Shown piece after piece: positions 44,116-56,875 of a DNA stretch of 64,000 bases. The number at the start of each line of letters is the position of its first letter. The first letter of the stretch is position 1. The notes beneath the pieces were generated by a model. The model saw nothing but the letters and a program-made list of their open reading frames with translations. It did not search any database and was not told where the DNA came from. Location of the stretch: positions 5,877,501 through 5,941,500 of the forward strand of contig NZ_CP109485.1 of assembly GCF_035918235.1 (NCBI RefSeq). The letters run 5' to 3'. The stretch is from Streptomyces sp. NBC_01445. Lineage in GTDB: Bacteria > Actinomycetota > Actinomycetes > Streptomycetales > Streptomycetaceae. The position numbers and the translations under genes are program-made.

Positions 44116-44289
44116 GATTCGTCAGTTACTCCAGTGTGGGTAGAGAGGGCGAACTGACCGGAAAGGTTCCTTCGGGGCGATGTGAACGGAGACACAGGTC
44201 ACGTCAGGAACCGGGCGGGCCGCCCGCTACGTGAGCCCTGGGCTCCGTAAGTCATGGGGCGCCCTGGGCGTCTTGGTGCGCCCCGTGCC

Positions 44290-45393
44290 TCAACTCCCGT
44301 ACAGATCCCGGTACGAGAGGAACGTCCCGCCCGGCCCCCGCACCGAATCCGCCGTGAGCACCGCCCGCACGATCGCCCGCGTCACCATGTCCGCGCCCGC
44401 CGCGAGGATGTCGTTCAGCGCGAGGGGGTTGGCCTCGTCGAGCGGGCGGGTGCCGGTCGCGACGGCGAAGACGGTGTCCCCGTCGTTGAGGAGATGCACC
44501 GGACGGACGGCGCGCGCGATGCCGTCGTGCGAGGTGCCCGCGAGCTTGTGCGCCTCGGAACGGGTGAGCACCGCGTCCGTGGCGACGACGGCGAGCGTGG
44601 TGTTCATCGGCGGCGGCGCCTGTCCGGCGGCCTCCTCCTTGGCCCGTGCGATCCGCTCCTGCGCCGCCGCGTGCGCCTCGGGCGAGGGGTACGGATATGG
44701 GTGCGGGTGCGGTTCGCCGTTCCGCGCGGAGGCGAAGGCGGAGCTGGAGACGGAGGCCGGGTCGAAGAGCCGCCCGTAGAGCGCGCCCGTCGCCGGATCG
44801 ACCGCGGAGCCCACCGCGTTGGCCACGACCAGCGCCGCGACCGTGATGCCCGAGTCGAGCACTGTGCTTGCCGTGCCCACGCCGCCCTTGAGCCCGCCGA
44901 TCACCGCGCCCGTGCCCGCGCCCACCGAACCCTCCGCAACGGGCGAGCCCGGCGCGGACGCAGCCGCCGCCTCCACCGCCGCGCGGCCCGTCGCCGCGTG
45001 AGGCCTGGCCCCGAACTCCCCGCCGCGCCCCAGGTCGAAGACGCACGCGGCGGGGACGACCGGCACCACCTCGCACGGCCCCGCCCCCACCCGTACGCCC
45101 CGGCCCTGCTCCTCCAGCCATGCCATGACACCTGAAGCGGCGTCCAGGCCGTAAGCACTGCCGCCCGTCAGGGTTACGGCGTCGATGCGCCGGACCACGT
45201 TGCGCGGGTCGAGCGCGTCCGTCTCCTTCGTGCCCGGGCCGCCGCCGCGCACGTCCACGGCAGCGGTCATCCCGCCCTCGGGCGCGAGCACCACCGTCGT
45301 CCCGGTCAGCCAGCCGCCCTCGCCGGTGCGGGTGGCGTGACCGACCCGCAGGCCGGTGACATCGGTCAGGGCATTGCGCGTGGGCGTCGTCAT
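44290..45393 (-). CDS. P1-family peptidase (DmpA-like, self-cleaving)
   Basis: A 367-residue member of the N-terminal-nucleophile P1 family. L-T-D-V-T-G-L-R-V-G-H at the start, T-L-T-G-G-S-A-Y-G-L-D-A-A-S-G-V near 75-90 and P-P-P-M-N-T-T-L (cleavage expected between Asn264 and Thr265) are its landmarks. The precursor cuts itself into two chains, and the new N-terminal residue is the nucleophile for amidase or beta-aminopeptidase activity. A His/Pro/Tyr repeat (about 228-238) sits in the linker before the cut. Confidence 0.9.
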   Translation of the reverse strand: MTTPTRNALTDVTGLRVGHATRTGEGGWLTGTTVVLAPEGGMTAAVDVRGGGPGTKETDALDPRNVVRRIDAVTLTGGSAYGLDAASGVMAWLEEQGRGVRVGAGPCEVVPVVPAACVFDLGRGGEFGARPHAATGRAAVEAAAASAPGSPVAEGSVGAGTGAVIGGLKGGVGTASTVLDSGITVAALVVANAVGSAVDPATGALYGRLFDPASVSSSAFASARNGEPHPHPYPYPSPEAHAAAQERIARAKEEAAGQAPPPMNTTLAVVATDAVLTRSEAHKLAGTSHDGIARAVRPVHLLNDGDTVFAVATGTRPLDEANPLALNDILAAGADMVTRAIVRAVLTADSVRGPGGTFLSYRDLYGS

Positions 45394-45499
45394 ACGGCAT
45401 GCGTATCACGTGAGTTGGGCCCCGGGGCCGCCTCCGCGCGGGCCCCGGCGCCGGGTGCGGGGCCGCGTGCGCGGCCGTGATCCCCGCCGCCGTCAGCGT

Positions 45500-45970
45500 G
45501 ATCCCCGCCGCCGTCGGCTCGCGCAAAGCACGAGCTCGGCCTGCACACCGCCGTCGACACCTCGGGCTTCCTCGGTGGGCGCCACCGACGCGCTGCTGCG
45601 GGACGTCGGCCTCGTCCTGCTCGACATCAAGTCCTGGGACCCCGAGACCTACCGCAGGGTCACCGGACGCCCCCTGCGCCCGACCCTCGACGTCGCGCAC
45701 CGCCTCGCCGACCTCGGCAAGAACGTCTGGGTGCGCTTCGTCCCCGTGCCCGGCCTGACCGACGAACCGGAGAACATCGAGGGCGTCGCTTTCGCGGGCT
45801 CCCTCGGCAACGTCTCCGGCGTCGACGTCCTGCCCTTCCACAAGCCGGGCGAGCCCAAGTGGCAGGGCCTCGGCAAGCCCTTCCCGCTGCACGACACCCC
45901 GACGCCCACCCTCGAGCAGCTGGCCACGCCCAGGAACATCTTCACGGCGCACGGCCTCACCACGGTCTGA
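45500..45970 (+). pseudogene. Frameshifted remnant of a pyruvate formate-lyase activating enzyme (PflA-like)
   Basis: From about 45590 the frame gives L-V-L-L-D-I-K-S-W-D-P-E-T-Y-R-R-V-T-G-R and V-D-V-L-P-F-H-K-P-G-E-P-K-W, the C-terminal half of a radical SAM activase. Just before, H-T-A-V-D-T-S-G-F-L-G continues in another frame (about 45550-45575), so there is a frameshift. The N-terminal Cys-x3-Cys-x2-Cys cluster motif is absent. Not functional. Confidence 0.82.
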
Positions 45971-46020
45971 ACGGCCCGCACCCCGGCAGCCGGCCCCCCG
46001 ACGGACGTACGCTGGGAGGC

Positions 46021-46203
46021 ATGAGCACCGCCCCCGCCCCCGAACCGCGCGATCCGAAGAACGCGCTGGTCTTCGACGATCCGCTGAGCACGCAGTCCTC
46101 GGACGACACGGACCGAGGGTGGGGCGAGCGGCCCACCACCGGCGGCGACAGCGCCGCCGACCTGGCACGCTTCCTCGACGAGAAGCCGCCCCACCACCTC
46201 TGA
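46021..46203 (+). CDS. Small conserved acidic protein
   Basis: A 60-residue protein; D-P-K-N-A-L-V-F-D-D-P-L-S, D-D-T-D-R-G-W-G-E-R and a C-terminal A-D-L-A-R-F-L-D-E-K-P are strongly patterned, as in many Streptomyces genomes. Probably disordered, with a terminal helix. Function unknown. It runs convergent to mscL with an eight-base gap. Confidence 0.72.
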   Translation: MSTAPAPEPRDPKNALVFDDPLSTQSSDDTDRGWGERPTTGGDSAADLARFLDEKPPHHL

Positions 46204-46210
46204 GCCGCGG

Positions 46211-46669
46211 CTACTGCTCGCGGTGCCCGGAGCCGCGCTGCGCCACCAGAGCGTCGCGGATCTCCTTCAGGACCTCCAGCTCGGACAGCTCGACGACCTC
46301 CGCGGCACCTTCCTTCGCGGCATCCCGGGCCGCCTTCTTGGCCAGGTACTTGGCCATCGGCAGCACCATCAGGAAGTACACGACCGCGGCGGTGATCAGG
46401 AACGTGAGAGTGGCGCTGAGCACCGTGCCCCACAGGATCTCGATGCCGTCGTCGCCCGGGCACGTGCCCTTCAGGCACGACTTGTAGCCGTCCAGGTCCT
46501 TCGTGCCGAACGCGCCGACCAGCGGGTTGATGACGCCCTTCACGACGGCGTTCACGATGTTGGTGAACGCGGCTCCGATGACCACCGCGACCGCAAGGTC
46601 GATCACGTTCCCGCGCATCAAGAAGGCCTTGAAGCCCTCCCACACGCTCGGCTTCTTCTTCTCGCTCAC
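46211..46669 (-). CDS. mscL: Large-conductance mechanosensitive channel MscL
   Basis: A 152-residue protein. The GTG at 46669 has GAGAGG seven bases ahead and is preferred to the GTG at 46687. F-K-A-F-L-M-R-G-N-V-I-D-L-A-V-A-V-V-I-G-A-A-F is the MscL signature and first helix; the second helix is T-F-L-I-T-A-A-V-V-Y-F-L-M-V. The C-terminal helix is long and charged. It opens under membrane tension to release solutes on osmotic downshock. Confidence 0.95.
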   Translation of the reverse strand: MSEKKKPSVWEGFKAFLMRGNVIDLAVAVVIGAAFTNIVNAVVKGVINPLVGAFGTKDLDGYKSCLKGTCPGDDGIEILWGTVLSATLTFLITAAVVYFLMVLPMAKYLAKKAARDAAKEGAAEVVELSELEVLKEIRDALVAQRGSGHREQ

Positions 46670-46819
46670 CAGAAGGCCTCTCTTCACTTGTGCAGGACGT
46701 GGAGCAAACAGCTCCGCAACCTACGACAGCGCCTGGCGGGCCTGTCCAATTCGCCAACTCGAACGAGGGATTTGACTTCGAACCCGTGCGGACCGGCTCG
46801 TCCGGGGACCCGAAAATGA

Positions 46820-47579: not shown

Positions 47580-48464
47580 TTACGGCAGCACGATCCCCGG
47601 ATCCATCCCCCCGAGCGCCCCCCTGCACAAGCAGTCCCGCTCGCCCTCCGCCGGCAGCTCCGCCACCGCGTCGAAGAGCACCGCCCGCAGCCGGTCCACA
47701 TTGGCGGCGAAGACCTGGAGGACCTCGTCGTGCGAGACGCCCTCGCCCGAATCGGCGCCCGCGTCGAGGTCGGTGACCAGGGTCAACGACGTGTAGCAGA
47801 GCTCGAGTTCACGCGCGAGCATCGCCTCGGGGTGGCCGGTCATGCCGACCACCGACCAGCCCTGGGAGGCGTGCCAGCGGGACTCGGCGCGGGTCGAGAA
47901 CCGCGGCCCCTCGACCACGACGAGCGTCCCGCCGTCCACCGGCTCCCAGTCGCGTCCGCGCGCCGCCTTCACGGCGACCCGGCGCCCGGCCGGGCAGTAC
48001 GGGTCGGCGGGCGACACGTGCACGACGTTCGGCACACTCCCGTCCGCCAGCGGCTCCCCGTCGAAGTACGTCTGCGCGCGGGCCTTCGTCCTGTCCACGA
48101 ACTGGTCGGGCACCAGGAGCGTCCCCGGTCCGAACTCGGGTCGGAGCCCGCCCACGGCGCACGGGCCGAGAACCTGCCGGACGCCCACCGAGCGCAGGGC
48201 CCAGAGGTTGGCGCGGTAGTTGATGCGGTGCGGCGGCAGATGGTGGCCGCGGCCGTGGCGGGGCAGAAAGGCGACCTTCCGGCCCGCGATCTCGCCGAGG
48301 AAGAGCGAGTCGCTCGGCGCTCCGTAAGGGGTGTCGACCTGGACCTCGGTCACGTCGTCCAGGAACGAGTAGAAGCCGGAGCCGCCGATGACTCCGATCT
48401 CGGCCGTGACCTGTGTGTTCGCCTTGTTCGCCGTGCCGGGAACTGTATTCGCCATGTCCGGCAC
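47580..48464 (-). CDS. mtnP: S-methyl-5'-thioadenosine phosphorylase
   Basis: A 294-residue purine phosphorylase of the MTAP type: I-G-V-I-G-G-S-G-F-Y (phosphate loop), F-L-P-R-H-G-R-G-H, P-P-H-R-I-N-Y-R-A-N, C-A-V-G-G-L, V-V-E-G-P-R-F-S-T-R-A-E and G-M-T-G-H-P-E-A. It splits methylthioadenosine into adenine and methylthioribose-1-phosphate for methionine salvage. Start GTG 48464 or ATG 48455; neither has a strong ribosome binding site. Confidence 0.92.
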   Translation of the reverse strand: MPDMANTVPGTANKANTQVTAEIGVIGGSGFYSFLDDVTEVQVDTPYGAPSDSLFLGEIAGRKVAFLPRHGRGHHLPPHRINYRANLWALRSVGVRQVLGPCAVGGLRPEFGPGTLLVPDQFVDRTKARAQTYFDGEPLADGSVPNVVHVSPADPYCPAGRRVAVKAARGRDWEPVDGGTLVVVEGPRFSTRAESRWHASQGWSVVGMTGHPEAMLARELELCYTSLTLVTDLDAGADSGEGVSHDEVLQVFAANVDRLRAVLFDAVAELPAEGERDCLCRGALGGMDPGIVLP

Positions 48465-48548
48465 AGTATCCGCCCGGGAACGCCGAAAACCCTGTCGTCG
48501 CAGGACGACAGGGTTCCGTAAGAACTTGGCCGAAGCGGCCGAGCGGTC

Positions 48549-48884
48549 TTAGGCGGCGGAAGAGCTCGAGGACGAGCCCGAAGAAGAAGACGAAGCGGAG
48601 GCCGAGGACGTCGACGCGGAGGACGACTTGGCGTCCGAGGACGAAGACTTCGTGTCCGAGGTGGTCGACTTCGCGGACGACGACGCCGGCGAGCTGCTCG
48701 ACGAGGAGCCGCGGCTGTCGTTGCGGTAGAAGCCTGATCCCTTGAAGACGATGCCGACCGCCGAGAACACCTTCTTGAGGCGTCCGTCGCAGCTGGGGCA
48801 CACGGTCAGGGCGTCATCGGTGAACTTCTGCACCGCCTCGAGGCCCTCGCCACACTCGGTGCACTGGTACTGGTACGTCGGCAC
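48549..48884 (-). CDS. FmdB-family zinc-ribbon protein, Ruc (Rv0991c)-like chaperone with Ser-rich tail
   Basis: A 111-residue protein. Residues 1-58 are a zinc ribbon with Cys8, Cys11, Cys29 and Cys32, and V-G-I-V-F-K-G-S-G-F-Y-R. From about 60 the tail is nearly all Ser, Ala, Lys, Thr and Asp, hence disordered. This is the architecture of mycobacterial Ruc, a heat-inducible redox-switched chaperone that works with DnaK and is HrcA-controlled. Here too a CIRCE element overlaps the ribosome binding site (AGGAGG, six bases before the GTG start). Databases usually call the family FmdB regulators; the chaperone reading rests on similarity plus the operator. Confidence 0.88.
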   Translation of the reverse strand: MPTYQYQCTECGEGLEAVQKFTDDALTVCPSCDGRLKKVFSAVGIVFKGSGFYRNDSRGSSSSSSPASSSAKSTTSDTKSSSSDAKSSSASTSSASASSSSSGSSSSSSAA

Positions 48885-48894
48885 TTGCTTCCTC

Positions 48895-48921
48895 CTGGCA
48901 CTCTCACTCGATGAGTGCTAA
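48895..48921 (-). promoter_or_regulatory. CIRCE element (HrcA operator)
   Basis: On the minus strand TTAGCACTC, nine bases, then GAGTGCCAG. Compared with TTAGCACTC-N9-GAGTGCTAA, one arm is perfect (9/9) and the other 7/9, with the exact spacer. It abuts and partly overlaps the ribosome binding site of the zinc-ribbon gene, so HrcA should repress it until heat stress. Confidence 0.9.
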
Positions 48922-48951
48922 CGACAATCCATAGTGACGTATTCCGCGAGA

Positions 48952-50238
48952 TCAGTCCACTGACACGGGCACTCGGTGACCGATACCACGCGCCACGGTC
49001 CGGCCGGTCGACGGCGGGACGAGGCGGGACCGCAGGGTCGCGAGGAGCAGTACGGCGAGCACCGTGCCGCCCATCGGGACGAGGAATCCGGCGCCGTCCC
49101 AGAGGCGGTCCTCCAGCTGGCCGGCGACCGTGACGGCCGCTGCCTGGCCGAGCGCGACCGCGCCCGTGAGCCACGTGAAGGCCTCGGTGCGGGCGGTCGG
49201 CGGGACCAGCTTCTCGACGAGCGTGTAGCCCGTGATCAGGGCCGGGGCGATGCACGTGCCCACCAGCAGGCCGATACCGGCGAGCAGCAGCACCGACTGC
49301 GCGGCCCAGAGGCCGGAGGCGGTCACGGCGAGCGCGGTGTAGGCGAGCAGGAGGCGGCGCTGCGGCGCGATCTTCCAGGCGACGGCTCCGCAGACGATGC
49401 CGGAGAGCATGTTGCCCGCGGCGAACGTCCCGTAGAGGACACCGTTCAGGCCGGGCTCGCCGATCGACTCGGTGAAGGCGGCCAGGGCGACCTGCATGCC
49501 GCCGAAGACGGAGCCGATGCCGAGGAACGCCACGATCAGGACGCGCACTCCCGGGATCCGCAGCGCGGAAACGTGCTCCACGCGTGCGTGGACCTCGCCG
49601 GCGGTGCGGGAGGGCTGGGGCTGCGTGCCGCGCTGCGCGGCGAACAGGAGGCCGCCCACGAGCGTCAGGGCCGCCTCGGTGACGAGACCGGCGGCGGGGT
49701 GCACGCCGGTGCACAGGGCGGTCGCGAACAGCGGGCCGAGGACGAACGTGAACTCGTCCGTGACCGACTCGAAGGCGGCGGCCGTGGTCATGAGGGGCGA
49801 GCCCTGGAGCTTGACGCCCCAGCGGGCCCGCACCATGGGACCGATCTGTGGGGTGGAGGCGCCGGTCGGGACCGCCGCGACGAACAGGGCCCACAGGGGG
49901 GCGTCGGTGAGCGCGAGCACCGTCAGCAGGAGCACGGACGCCGTGTGCAGCAGGACGCCGGGCACGAGGACGGCGCGCTGCCCGAAGCGGTCGGCGAGCT
50001 TGCCCGTGAAGGGGGCGAACAGCGCCATGGAGACGCCGGTCGTGGCGGAGACGGCGCCGGCGGTGCCGTACGAGCCGGTGGTGTGCTGCACGAGCAGGAC
50101 CGTCGAGATGGTGAGCATCGCGAACGGCTGCCGGGCGGCGAAGCCGGGGAGCAGGAACGTCCAGGCGCCGCGGGTGCGCAGCAGCCGGCCGTATCCGGGG
50201 CGCTTGTCGGTGACCGTGGCCGTGTAATTCTCTGGCAC
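48952..50238 (-). CDS. MFS transporter, 12-helix type
   Basis: A 428-residue protein with about 12 membrane helices; G-K-L-A-D-R-F-G-Q-R between helices 2 and 3 is motif A. The stop lies about 30 bp upstream of the CIRCE element. GTG start with a weak ribosome binding site. Substrate unknown; single-component efflux is likely. Confidence 0.88.
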   Translation of the reverse strand: MPENYTATVTDKRPGYGRLLRTRGAWTFLLPGFAARQPFAMLTISTVLLVQHTTGSYGTAGAVSATTGVSMALFAPFTGKLADRFGQRAVLVPGVLLHTASVLLLTVLALTDAPLWALFVAAVPTGASTPQIGPMVRARWGVKLQGSPLMTTAAAFESVTDEFTFVLGPLFATALCTGVHPAAGLVTEAALTLVGGLLFAAQRGTQPQPSRTAGEVHARVEHVSALRIPGVRVLIVAFLGIGSVFGGMQVALAAFTESIGEPGLNGVLYGTFAAGNMLSGIVCGAVAWKIAPQRRLLLAYTALAVTASGLWAAQSVLLLAGIGLLVGTCIAPALITGYTLVEKLVPPTARTEAFTWLTGAVALGQAAAVTVAGQLEDRLWDGAGFLVPMGGTVLAVLLLATLRSRLVPPSTGRTVARGIGHRVPVSVD

Positions 50239-55285: not shown

Positions 55286-55888
55286 TCACCGGAAGCGGCG
55301 CACTCCCGAAGGCGTCACCACGGCGTGCACGGGACGGTCGTGCGGCTCCTCGGGGACGCGCTCGACGACCTCACCGTCGTACAGGAGCACCACGAGCGCC
55401 GGATCCGCGTCCGCGCGCTCGAGCCGCGCGAGGACCCGGTCGTACGAGCCGCCGCCGCGGCCGAGCCGCATGCCGCGCCCATCGACGGCGAGGCCCGGCA
55501 GCAGCACCGCGTCGGCCTCCACGACGGCCTCCGCGCCGAGCGGCTCCCCGGACGGCTCCAACAGGGCCATCTTTCCCGCATGTTGAACGCGCGCGAGGGA
55601 CCCCGGTCCGTCGTAGGCGCCCCAGTCGAGGTCGTTGTCGTCGAGGAGTACGGGAAGCAGGACGCGCACCCCGCGCGCGTGGAGCGCGTCGAGCAGCGCG
55701 CGGGTGCCCGGTTCACGGCCTACGGAGACGTACGCGGCGACGGTCCGTGCCCCGGCCAGCTCCGGAAGTTCAAGGGCCCGACGGGCGAGCGCCCCGGCCG
55801 CCGTCTCGACGTCATCGGCGGGCAACCCGGATCTCACCTGGAGGAGTTCTGCCCGCAACGCGTTCTTGTCAGCCTTTGACAAACACAT
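55286..55888 (-). CDS. 5-formyltetrahydrofolate cyclo-ligase
   Basis: A 200-residue enzyme: K-A-D-K-N-A-L-R-A-E-L-L near the start, the C-terminal signature L-P-G-L-A-V-D-G-R-G-M-R-L-G-R-G-G-G-S-Y-D-R and E-V-V-E-R-V-P-E-E-P-H-D. It converts 5-formyl-THF to 5,10-methenyl-THF using ATP. Divergent from galU, an arrangement I recall from mycobacteria (Rv0992c/Rv0993). Confidence 0.93.
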   Translation of the reverse strand: MCLSKADKNALRAELLQVRSGLPADDVETAAGALARRALELPELAGARTVAAYVSVGREPGTRALLDALHARGVRVLLPVLLDDNDLDWGAYDGPGSLARVQHAGKMALLEPSGEPLGAEAVVEADAVLLPGLAVDGRGMRLGRGGGSYDRVLARLERADADPALVVLLYDGEVVERVPEEPHDRPVHAVVTPSGVRRFR

Positions 55889-55972
55889 AGCCAGCTCACA
55901 AACCCCTCATATAGGCACCAAGTTAACTGGAAGCAAATCTTCCGCCCAGACGCTACGGATATGGTTCACCGC

Positions 55973-56875
55973 ATGACTGAGTCGCACCCCAGGATCAGCA
56001 AGGCTGTCATCCCCGCCGCGGGCCTCGGCACCCGGTTCCTGCCGGCCACCAAGGCAACGCCCAAGGAGATGCTGCCGGTCGTCGACAAGCCGGCGATCCA
56101 GTACGTCGTCGAGGAGGCCGCGGCTGCCGGTCTCGACGACGTACTCATGATCACGGGCCGCAACAAGCGGCCCCTGGAGGACCATTTCGACCGCAACTAC
56201 GAGCTCGAGTCGGCTCTCCAGAAGAAGGGTGACGCCGGCCGCCTCGCCAAGGTCCAGGAGTCCAGCGACCTCGCGACCATGCACTACGTCCGCCAGGGCG
56301 ACCCCAAGGGCCTCGGCCACGCCGTCCTGTGCGCGGCCCCGCACGTCGGCCAGGAGCCCTTCGCGGTCCTCCTCGGCGACGACCTGATCGACCCGCGCGA
56401 CCCCCTGCTCGCCCGCATGGTCGAGGTCCAGGAGCAGCGCGGCGGCAGCGTCATCGCACTCATGGAGGTCGAGCCCTCGCAGATCCACCTCTACGGCTGT
56501 GCCGCCGTCGAGGCGACCGTGGACAGCGACGTCGTCAAGATCACCGGCCTGGTCGAGAAGCCCGACCCCGCGGACGCCCCGTCGAACTACGCGATCATCG
56601 GCCGCTACGTCCTCGACCCCGCGATCTTCGACATACTCCGCCGGACCGAGCCGGGCCGCGGCGGCGAGATCCAGCTCACCGACGCCCTCCAGCAGCTCGC
56701 CGACGACGAGAAGGCCGGCGGCCCCGTCCACGGCGTCGTCTTCAAGGGCCGCCGGTATGACACCGGGGACCGCGGCGACTATCTGCGTGCCATTGTCAGA
56801 CTCGCGTGCGAACGTGAGGACCTGGGCCCGGACTTCCGGGCCTGGCTTCGCAGTTACGTCACCGAGGAGATGTAG
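55973..56875 (+). CDS. galU: UTP-glucose-1-phosphate uridylyltransferase
   Basis: A 300-residue GalU: V-I-P-A-A-G-L-G-T-R-F-L-P-A-T-K-A (11-27), P-K-E-M-L-P-V-V-D-K-P-A-I-Q, L-L-G-D-D near 130, and L-V-E-K-P. It makes UDP-glucose for cell-wall glycans, glycogen and trehalose. moeA starts five bases after its stop, so the two are one transcript. Confidence 0.96.
   Translation: MTESHPRISKAVIPAAGLGTRFLPATKATPKEMLPVVDKPAIQYVVEEAAAAGLDDVLMITGRNKRPLEDHFDRNYELESALQKKGDAGRLAKVQESSDLATMHYVRQGDPKGLGHAVLCAAPHVGQEPFAVLLGDDLIDPRDPLLARMVEVQEQRGGSVIALMEVEPSQIHLYGCAAVEATVDSDVVKITGLVEKPDPADAPSNYAIIGRYVLDPAIFDILRRTEPGRGGEIQLTDALQQLADDEKAGGPVHGVVFKGRRYDTGDRGDYLRAIVRLACEREDLGPDFRAWLRSYVTEEM

Follow-up and report, generated by a model that had tools for sequence, protein, structure and literature searches.

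The window analyzed here is a stretch of 64,000 nucleotides from Streptomyces sp. NBC_01445, and coordinates refer to it unless a genome position is given. On its minus strand it carries a small zinc-ribbon gene, ruc, preceded by a control region in which a promoter motif, a CIRCE operator and the ribosome binding site follow closely upon one another. The elements of the locus and the genes that serve to place it are the following.

48549..48884, minus strand: ruc ortholog, encoding a 111-amino-acid FmdB-family zinc-ribbon protein with Cys8/11/29/32 and a Ser-rich tail; GTG start at 48884
48891..48896, minus strand: Shine-Dalgarno sequence AGGAGG, whose first two bases are also the last two of the CIRCE right arm
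48895..48921, minus strand: CIRCE operator TTAGCACTC-N9-GAGTGCCAG, a predicted HrcA site with 2 mismatches, from motif match and conservation
48920..48945, minus strand: SigR-type promoter, GGAAT (48945-48941), N18, GTT (48922-48920), from motif and conservation
48931..48959, minus strand: possible vegetative promoter, TGGACT (48959-48954)-N17-CACTAT (48936-48931), a weak match proposed only from conservation
48488..48515, minus strand: strong hairpin and possible terminator between ruc and the MTAP gene (36-nt fold, z -6.15, TTTTC at the 3' end)
47580..48464, minus strand: S-methyl-5'-thioadenosine phosphorylase (MTAP), the next gene downstream
46211..46687, minus strand: mscL, a synteny marker common to mycobacterial ruc loci
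55286..55888, minus strand: 5-formyltetrahydrofolate cyclo-ligase, synteny marker
55961..56875, plus strand: galU, synteny marker

Read along the coding strand, the order is TGGACT, GGAAT, CACTAT, GTT, CIRCE, AGGAGG and GTG.

Profile searches of the open reading frame at 48549-48884 returned PF09723 (Zn_ribbon_8, Pfam) with an E value of 5.1e-15 and TIGR02605 (FmdB-family zinc ribbon, NCBIfam) with 4.6e-20, both above their cut-offs, and 33 of the 53 residues of the tail (residues 59 to 111) are serine. The preliminary description of this locus, which had spoken of a small FmdB-type gene with four zinc-ribbon cysteines and a Ser-rich tail, is borne out on both points. A protein search of 120 genomes, including the one under study, found an ortholog in 114; of the six genomes without one, four are 72 to 82% complete and two are 97 and 99% complete. 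Cys8, Cys11, Cys29 and Cys32 were kept in 114/114 orthologs and were likewise invariant in a 51-row alignment extending to Chloroflexi. No further cysteine was present in any of the 112 orthologs with at least 10 tail residues; the two with shorter tails, one of which is truncated at the end of its contig, were dropped from this count. The tails kept their composition, with a median serine fraction of 0.56 (112 tails), but not their sequence. Every named protein among the best 120 matches listed was from Streptomyces, in agreement with the genus given in the preliminary description, and a sequence search of the PDB yielded no useful relative (one match, E 0.27). The genome encodes a second Zn_ribbon_8 protein (G000:C1:6889337-6889456, locus L008), which has no CIRCE within its 3-kb locus.

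The gene order in the window is galU, cyclo-ligase, three genes (MFS, sodium/proton antiporter and penicillin-acylase-like), ruc, MTAP, a CpaB/SAF-like gene and mscL. In 12 named loci, which we take to belong to the Mycobacteriales, galU was found near ruc in all 12 (on the opposite strand); 11 had the cyclo-ligase gene and 10 had mscL, which lay on the opposite strand in two cases. Within the genus, the MTAP gene stood beside ruc in 70/70 loci and mscL was seen in 37, most loci being too short for galU. The protein showed 48 to 59% identity to six Mycobacteriales Ruc-type proteins. Because the four cysteine positions are the same and the synteny is shared, membership of the Ruc family is, as far as sequence goes, well founded. 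The likeness in build to mycobacterial Rv0991c (Ruc) that had been pointed out before thus extends to the cysteine numbering, identical in all 114 orthologs, and to the galU, cyclo-ligase and mscL neighborhood. Since mscL is SCO3190 in S. coelicolor (PMC10117811), counting along the gene order places a putative ruc of that species near SCO3187. In another part of the window (44254-46168), several long overlapping open reading frames were seen on both strands around an S58 peptidase gene (44290-45393, minus strand), as expected in G+C-rich DNA, and no second gene is proposed there.

The CIRCE operator, whose coding strand runs from 48921 down to 48895, matches the consensus in 9/9 and 7/9 positions of its arms, with a spacer of exactly nine nucleotides, as had been claimed. 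It was the only site in the window with up to three mismatches, the mean number in 100 shuffles being 0. The operator ends 10 nt upstream of the GTG codon and has two bases in common with AGGAGG (48896-48891), so the earlier statement that it overlaps the ribosome binding site is correct; around the Shine-Dalgarno sequence, CAGGAGGA was kept in 70/70 genus loci. The whole 11.47-Mb genome contained six CIRCE sites with at most three mismatches, distributed over four loci, while the reversed-pattern control gave 0. Apart from the one at ruc, two of the sites lie at groES-groEL1, two at groEL2 and one at hrcA-dnaJ2; these loci were named from their open reading frames, and the GroES, GroEL and DnaJ identities are our own reading of the predicted products. 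The hrcA gene, recognized by PF01628 (E 1.2e-58) at C1:6684315-6684971, lies downstream of a CIRCE; the HrcA piece scored 169.7 bits with TIGR00331, for which the whole-protein cut-off is 197.2.

To assess conservation of the operator, the best-scoring CIRCE match between -300 and +30 was taken for each ortholog. CIRCE was present upstream of 110/114 orthologs, with one, two, three or four mismatches in 6, 83, 12 and 9 cases, respectively, and was present in none of 420 control windows taken elsewhere in the same loci, where no match was better than six mismatches. Together with the window shuffles and the reversed-pattern control in the genome, this rules out a chance origin. The preliminary description had proposed a comparison of this upstream region across Streptomyces and had named loss of the element in close relatives as evidence that would speak against its reading. 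This comparison showed no loss, as CIRCE was kept in 70/70 loci of the genus. It was also present in all 14 loci from two further families of the order and in 26/30 loci of other orders of the class, ruling out a peculiarity of the genus. The four orthologs without CIRCE (7 to 9 mismatches) belong to genomes G091, G111, G112 and G118, all of which keep hrcA. CIRCE matches elsewhere in these genomes numbered three against none for the reversed control in G111 and two against none in G112; the counts were not clear in G118 (three against two) and showed no excess in G091 (one against two). No CIRCE (7 to 9 mismatches) preceded three more distant paralogs.

In a second collection of 80 named loci, which overlaps the first, 63 loci had CIRCE, and the 17 without it include Chloroflexi, Acidimicrobiia, Bifidobacterium, Brachybacterium, Aeromicrobium and several MAGs. 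A wider sample consisted of 40 regions, 39 of them outside the class, picked by hand among the matches listed from 184 genomes; two regions without a recognizable start were dropped. CIRCE was found in 6 of the remaining 37 regions outside the class (one region per family, except for two families sampled twice), in two of them only at four mismatches, and the reversed pattern reached six. CIRCE at ruc is therefore patchy outside the class, and the idea that it is universal is ruled out. The operator is more distant from the start codon in many other actinomycetes (as far as -122, and -203 in named loci), and one locus (L105, genome G113) has two near-identical tandem copies of CIRCE before ruc, at about -100 to -45. 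The CIRCE spacer of the genus (48904-48912) has a sequence of its own: GAGT was present in 66/70 loci and GAGTG in 57, with columns conserved at 96 to 97%, and GAGTG gives the operator an inner repeat, CACTC-N3-GAGTG. This feature is missing from the five CIRCE sites that the genome has elsewhere, and it may represent a third half-site, an RNA hairpin or shared descent.

Locked to CIRCE is a SigR-type promoter, which the preliminary description had missed. The GTT of its -10 element overlaps CIRCE by two bases, and GGAAT-N18-GTT stood at one fixed place in 67/70 genus loci, the exceptions being one extra base between the boxes (L028), GTAAT in place of GGAAT (L049) and a different upstream sequence (L072). 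The GGAAT columns were conserved at 97 to 100%, compared to 44 to 74% for the six columns before and 73 to 89% for the four after, and the TCGTT columns, at SigR spacing, were likewise nearly invariant. The site matches the SigR consensus GGAATN18GTT (Paget et al., cited in PMC2375139) and, as GGAATA-N17-GTT, also fits the M. tuberculosis SigH consensus GGAAYR-N17-18-GTT (PMC4803200). The genome encodes homologs of SigR (TIGR02947, 360.3 bits) and RsrA (TIGR03988, 103.5 bits), both over the cut-off and in adjacent genes. The motif is absent at the groES, groEL2 and hrcA sites, which rules it out as a feature of all CIRCE promoters.

A blind search with the composite pattern matched 87 of 296 whole genomes of the class. 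The ruc-type site was found in 28/28 genomes of the genus, including that of this strain, with four other matches compared to three for the reversed control, and in 19/24 genomes of family f6, with ten other matches compared to five; among the other 244 genomes, 40 had a match somewhere, many of them small genomes of family f27. These ruc-type sites were checked against ruc coordinates in eight cases for the genus and five for f6, and the remainder were recognized by their sequence. We read f6 as probably the Mycobacteriaceae in the wide sense, as its sites are similar or identical to those at named loci from Mycobacterium, Nocardia and Rhodococcus. Of the 12 named Mycobacteriales loci, a set that may overlap f6, 11 (all except L142) had the motif at CIRCE, as did Amycolatopsis L155, while L163, L181 and L193 had a match at other distances, as expected by chance. 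Among the CIRCE-bearing loci from other orders of the class, only two of 26 had a GGAAT near the operator, and none was found in the 14 loci of the other families of the order, all of which bear CIRCE. The SigR part of the layout is thus not general, and its absence from the nearest other families means that it was lost there or gained twice. At two CIRCE sites of G111 that are not upstream of ruc (G111:C1:93368-93400 and 1066015-1066047), the composite GGAATA...GGCGTTAGCACT was observed, and similar sequences occur in other f27/g29 genomes (about 1.3 to 1.8 Mb); these may be promoters for other HrcA targets, or a TAGATT-type -10 element with a chance GGAAT.

The nearest studied system is that of M. 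tuberculosis, where HrcA represses groES, groEL1, groEL2 and ruc, SigH activates ruc, the HrcA and SigH sites at ruc overlap, and Ruc levels rise on heating and when hrcA is lost (PMC7448276); Rv0991c also stands in a SigH ChIP-seq target table, with a value of 40.3 (PMC4803200). The SigR-type promoter at CIRCE makes the parallel between the two loci much closer (PMC7448276, PMC4803200), since in both an HrcA site is overlapped by the site of a SigH/SigR-type ECF sigma factor. The proteins share the Cys8/11/29/32 zinc ribbon and a hydrophilic tail, which is disordered in Ruc (PMC7448276) and which in the Streptomyces protein fits this by its composition, and the galU, cyclo-ligase and mscL neighborhood, which we compared with other named Mycobacterium loci, is alike. 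M. tuberculosis Ruc binds one zinc when reduced, gains chaperone activity on oxidation or on C8S,C11S or C29S,C32S changes, and requires its tail (PMC7448276). M. tuberculosis belongs to a different order, however, and the chaperone activity of the Streptomyces protein is predicted by analogy. In addition, rv0991c forms an operon with rv0990c (PMC8557902), whereas in the window three genes separate the cyclo-ligase gene from ruc and the MTAP gene comes next, with the hairpin in between. A terminator scan gave this hairpin (48488-48515) no score, and a perfect hairpin of at least 8 bp within 110 nt was present in only 25/70 genus loci, indicating that it is not general.

Compared to the other members of the Streptomyces HrcA/CIRCE regulon (groES-groEL1 and groEL2 [PMC2687793], and hrcA itself, which a CIRCE precedes), ruc is alike in its operator but has a single CIRCE, where each groE locus of this genome has two, and it alone among these CIRCE loci has a SigR motif. 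With the SigR regulon it shares the GGAAT-N18-GTT promoter and the SigR/RsrA pair, and it differs by the CIRCE that covers the end of the -10 element. Parts of this picture are in print. The Ruc family is described as widespread in bacteria and present in 73.84% of 497 Actinobacteria genomes (PMC7448276). The SIGffRid paper (PMC2375139) prints among its SigR-like motifs a GTT-agcactcat stretch, there without a gene name, which is plainly this promoter from one of the two Streptomyces genomes of that study; the sigma motif has therefore been in print since 2008, there without its gene. Our search of the open-licence literature returned no report that places this gene under HrcA or SigR in Streptomyces, and no experiment on it in that genus.

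What is observed is the operator and the promoter motif, both conserved and in fixed register, together with the cysteines, the synteny and the homologs of HrcA and SigR/RsrA. Binding by HrcA, dependence on SigR and activity as a chaperone are carried over from the mycobacterial work, and by this analogy we consider it likely that this is the ruc gene of Streptomyces, with HrcA as its repressor and SigR driving its transcription. The earlier interpretation, which had placed the protein in the heat-shock chaperone system, is supported by these comparisons. CIRCE covers the -10 end and the presumed start point and runs into the Shine-Dalgarno sequence, and HrcA sitting on it at rest would block RNA polymerase. 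In the accepted view, HrcA needs GroEL for binding and is inactive when GroEL is busy with unfolded protein. Protein-unfolding stress would disable HrcA, and thiol-oxidizing stress would release SigR from RsrA, as SigR is freed on RsrA oxidation (PMC4921905). With SigR freed by thiol stress and HrcA disabled by unfolding, full expression would be expected under both. Reduced Ruc would hold zinc and be idle, whereas oxidized Ruc, its zinc lost, would bind unfolded protein with the help of its presumably disordered tail, aiding DnaK/DnaJ. Being switched on by oxidation, Ruc would thus answer to the same joint stress in its expression and in its activity.

The promoter at which this would take place could be a different one. 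If an ordinary sigma factor read the gene from TGGACT-N17-CACTAT, and SigR did not use GGAAT in vivo, a Ruc-type chaperone would be under HrcA but subject to heat and unfolding control only. In line with this, the TGGACT columns are 94 to 99% conserved, near the level of GGAAT, and 69/70 genus loci match a loose form of the element (a pattern run without a control); the other families have CIRCE mostly without GGAAT; and in the diamide microarray cited in PMC2375139, 46/50 motif occurrences outside the known SigR regulon were unchanged. However, a consensus scan found no sigma-70 promoter at 48931-48959, the GGAAT and TCGTT columns stay nearly invariant at SigR spacing beside variable ones, and the layout recurs in Mycobacteriales, with SigH use reported at M. 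tuberculosis ruc (PMC7448276, PMC4803200). We regard exclusive use of the vegetative element as unlikely.

Some relatives carry the name FmdB family transcriptional regulator, and the gene might accordingly encode a transcription regulator, or a zinc sensor, that happens to be controlled by HrcA. Yet Pfam and NCBIfam found the zinc ribbon alone and no DNA-binding domain in the 111-residue protein, TIGR02605 is itself described as an FmdB family zinc ribbon protein, and M. tuberculosis Ruc, whose cysteines occupy the same positions, acts as a chaperone (PMC7448276). A regulator is therefore improbable, and the gene, usually labeled as one, is very probably the counterpart of the mycobacterial oxidation-activated chaperone. 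That CIRCE acts mainly as a 5' hairpin of the mRNA tuning translation or stability, with HrcA binding secondary, is very improbable: transcription would start within CIRCE or shortly upstream of it, with an arm running into AGGAGG, but the predicted fold hardly surpasses shuffled sequences (z -1.10, 31/200 as good) and leaves AGGAGG mostly free, so that a hairpin covering the Shine-Dalgarno sequence is unsupported, and many other actinomycetes have CIRCE at a greater distance from the start codon (as far as -122 or -203).

The reading of ruc as an HrcA-repressed, SigR-fired chaperone gene can be extended tentatively, although the extension as a whole is less likely than not. In it ruc would be the one gene of the HrcA regulon that acts as a coincidence detector: with a SigR promoter and an HrcA brake it would respond to combined oxidation and unfolding, the conditions that also activate the Ruc protein. 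This arrangement would have persisted in Streptomyces and Mycobacteriales, with loss or replacement in the groups between; the spacer GAGT(G) would be a further part of the switch; and the actinomycete "FmdB regulators" of the orthologous group would be oxidation-activated chaperones.

If the proposed control and function are correct, Streptomyces has a further HrcA target, and a gene often annotated as a regulator moves into protein quality control. A nonpathogenic, genetically easy host would also be at hand for studying how Ruc works and for asking why heat-shock and thiol-stress control share one promoter. Hsp33 resembles Ruc in being a four-cysteine zinc switch that becomes a chaperone on oxidation, although the sequences are dissimilar (PMC7448276). 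No Hsp33 was found in 21/21 genomes (this one and 20 relatives, with 13 of the 21 belonging to the genus), while the control search was positive in 8/14, and Ruc may thus be the oxidation-activated chaperone of these bacteria.
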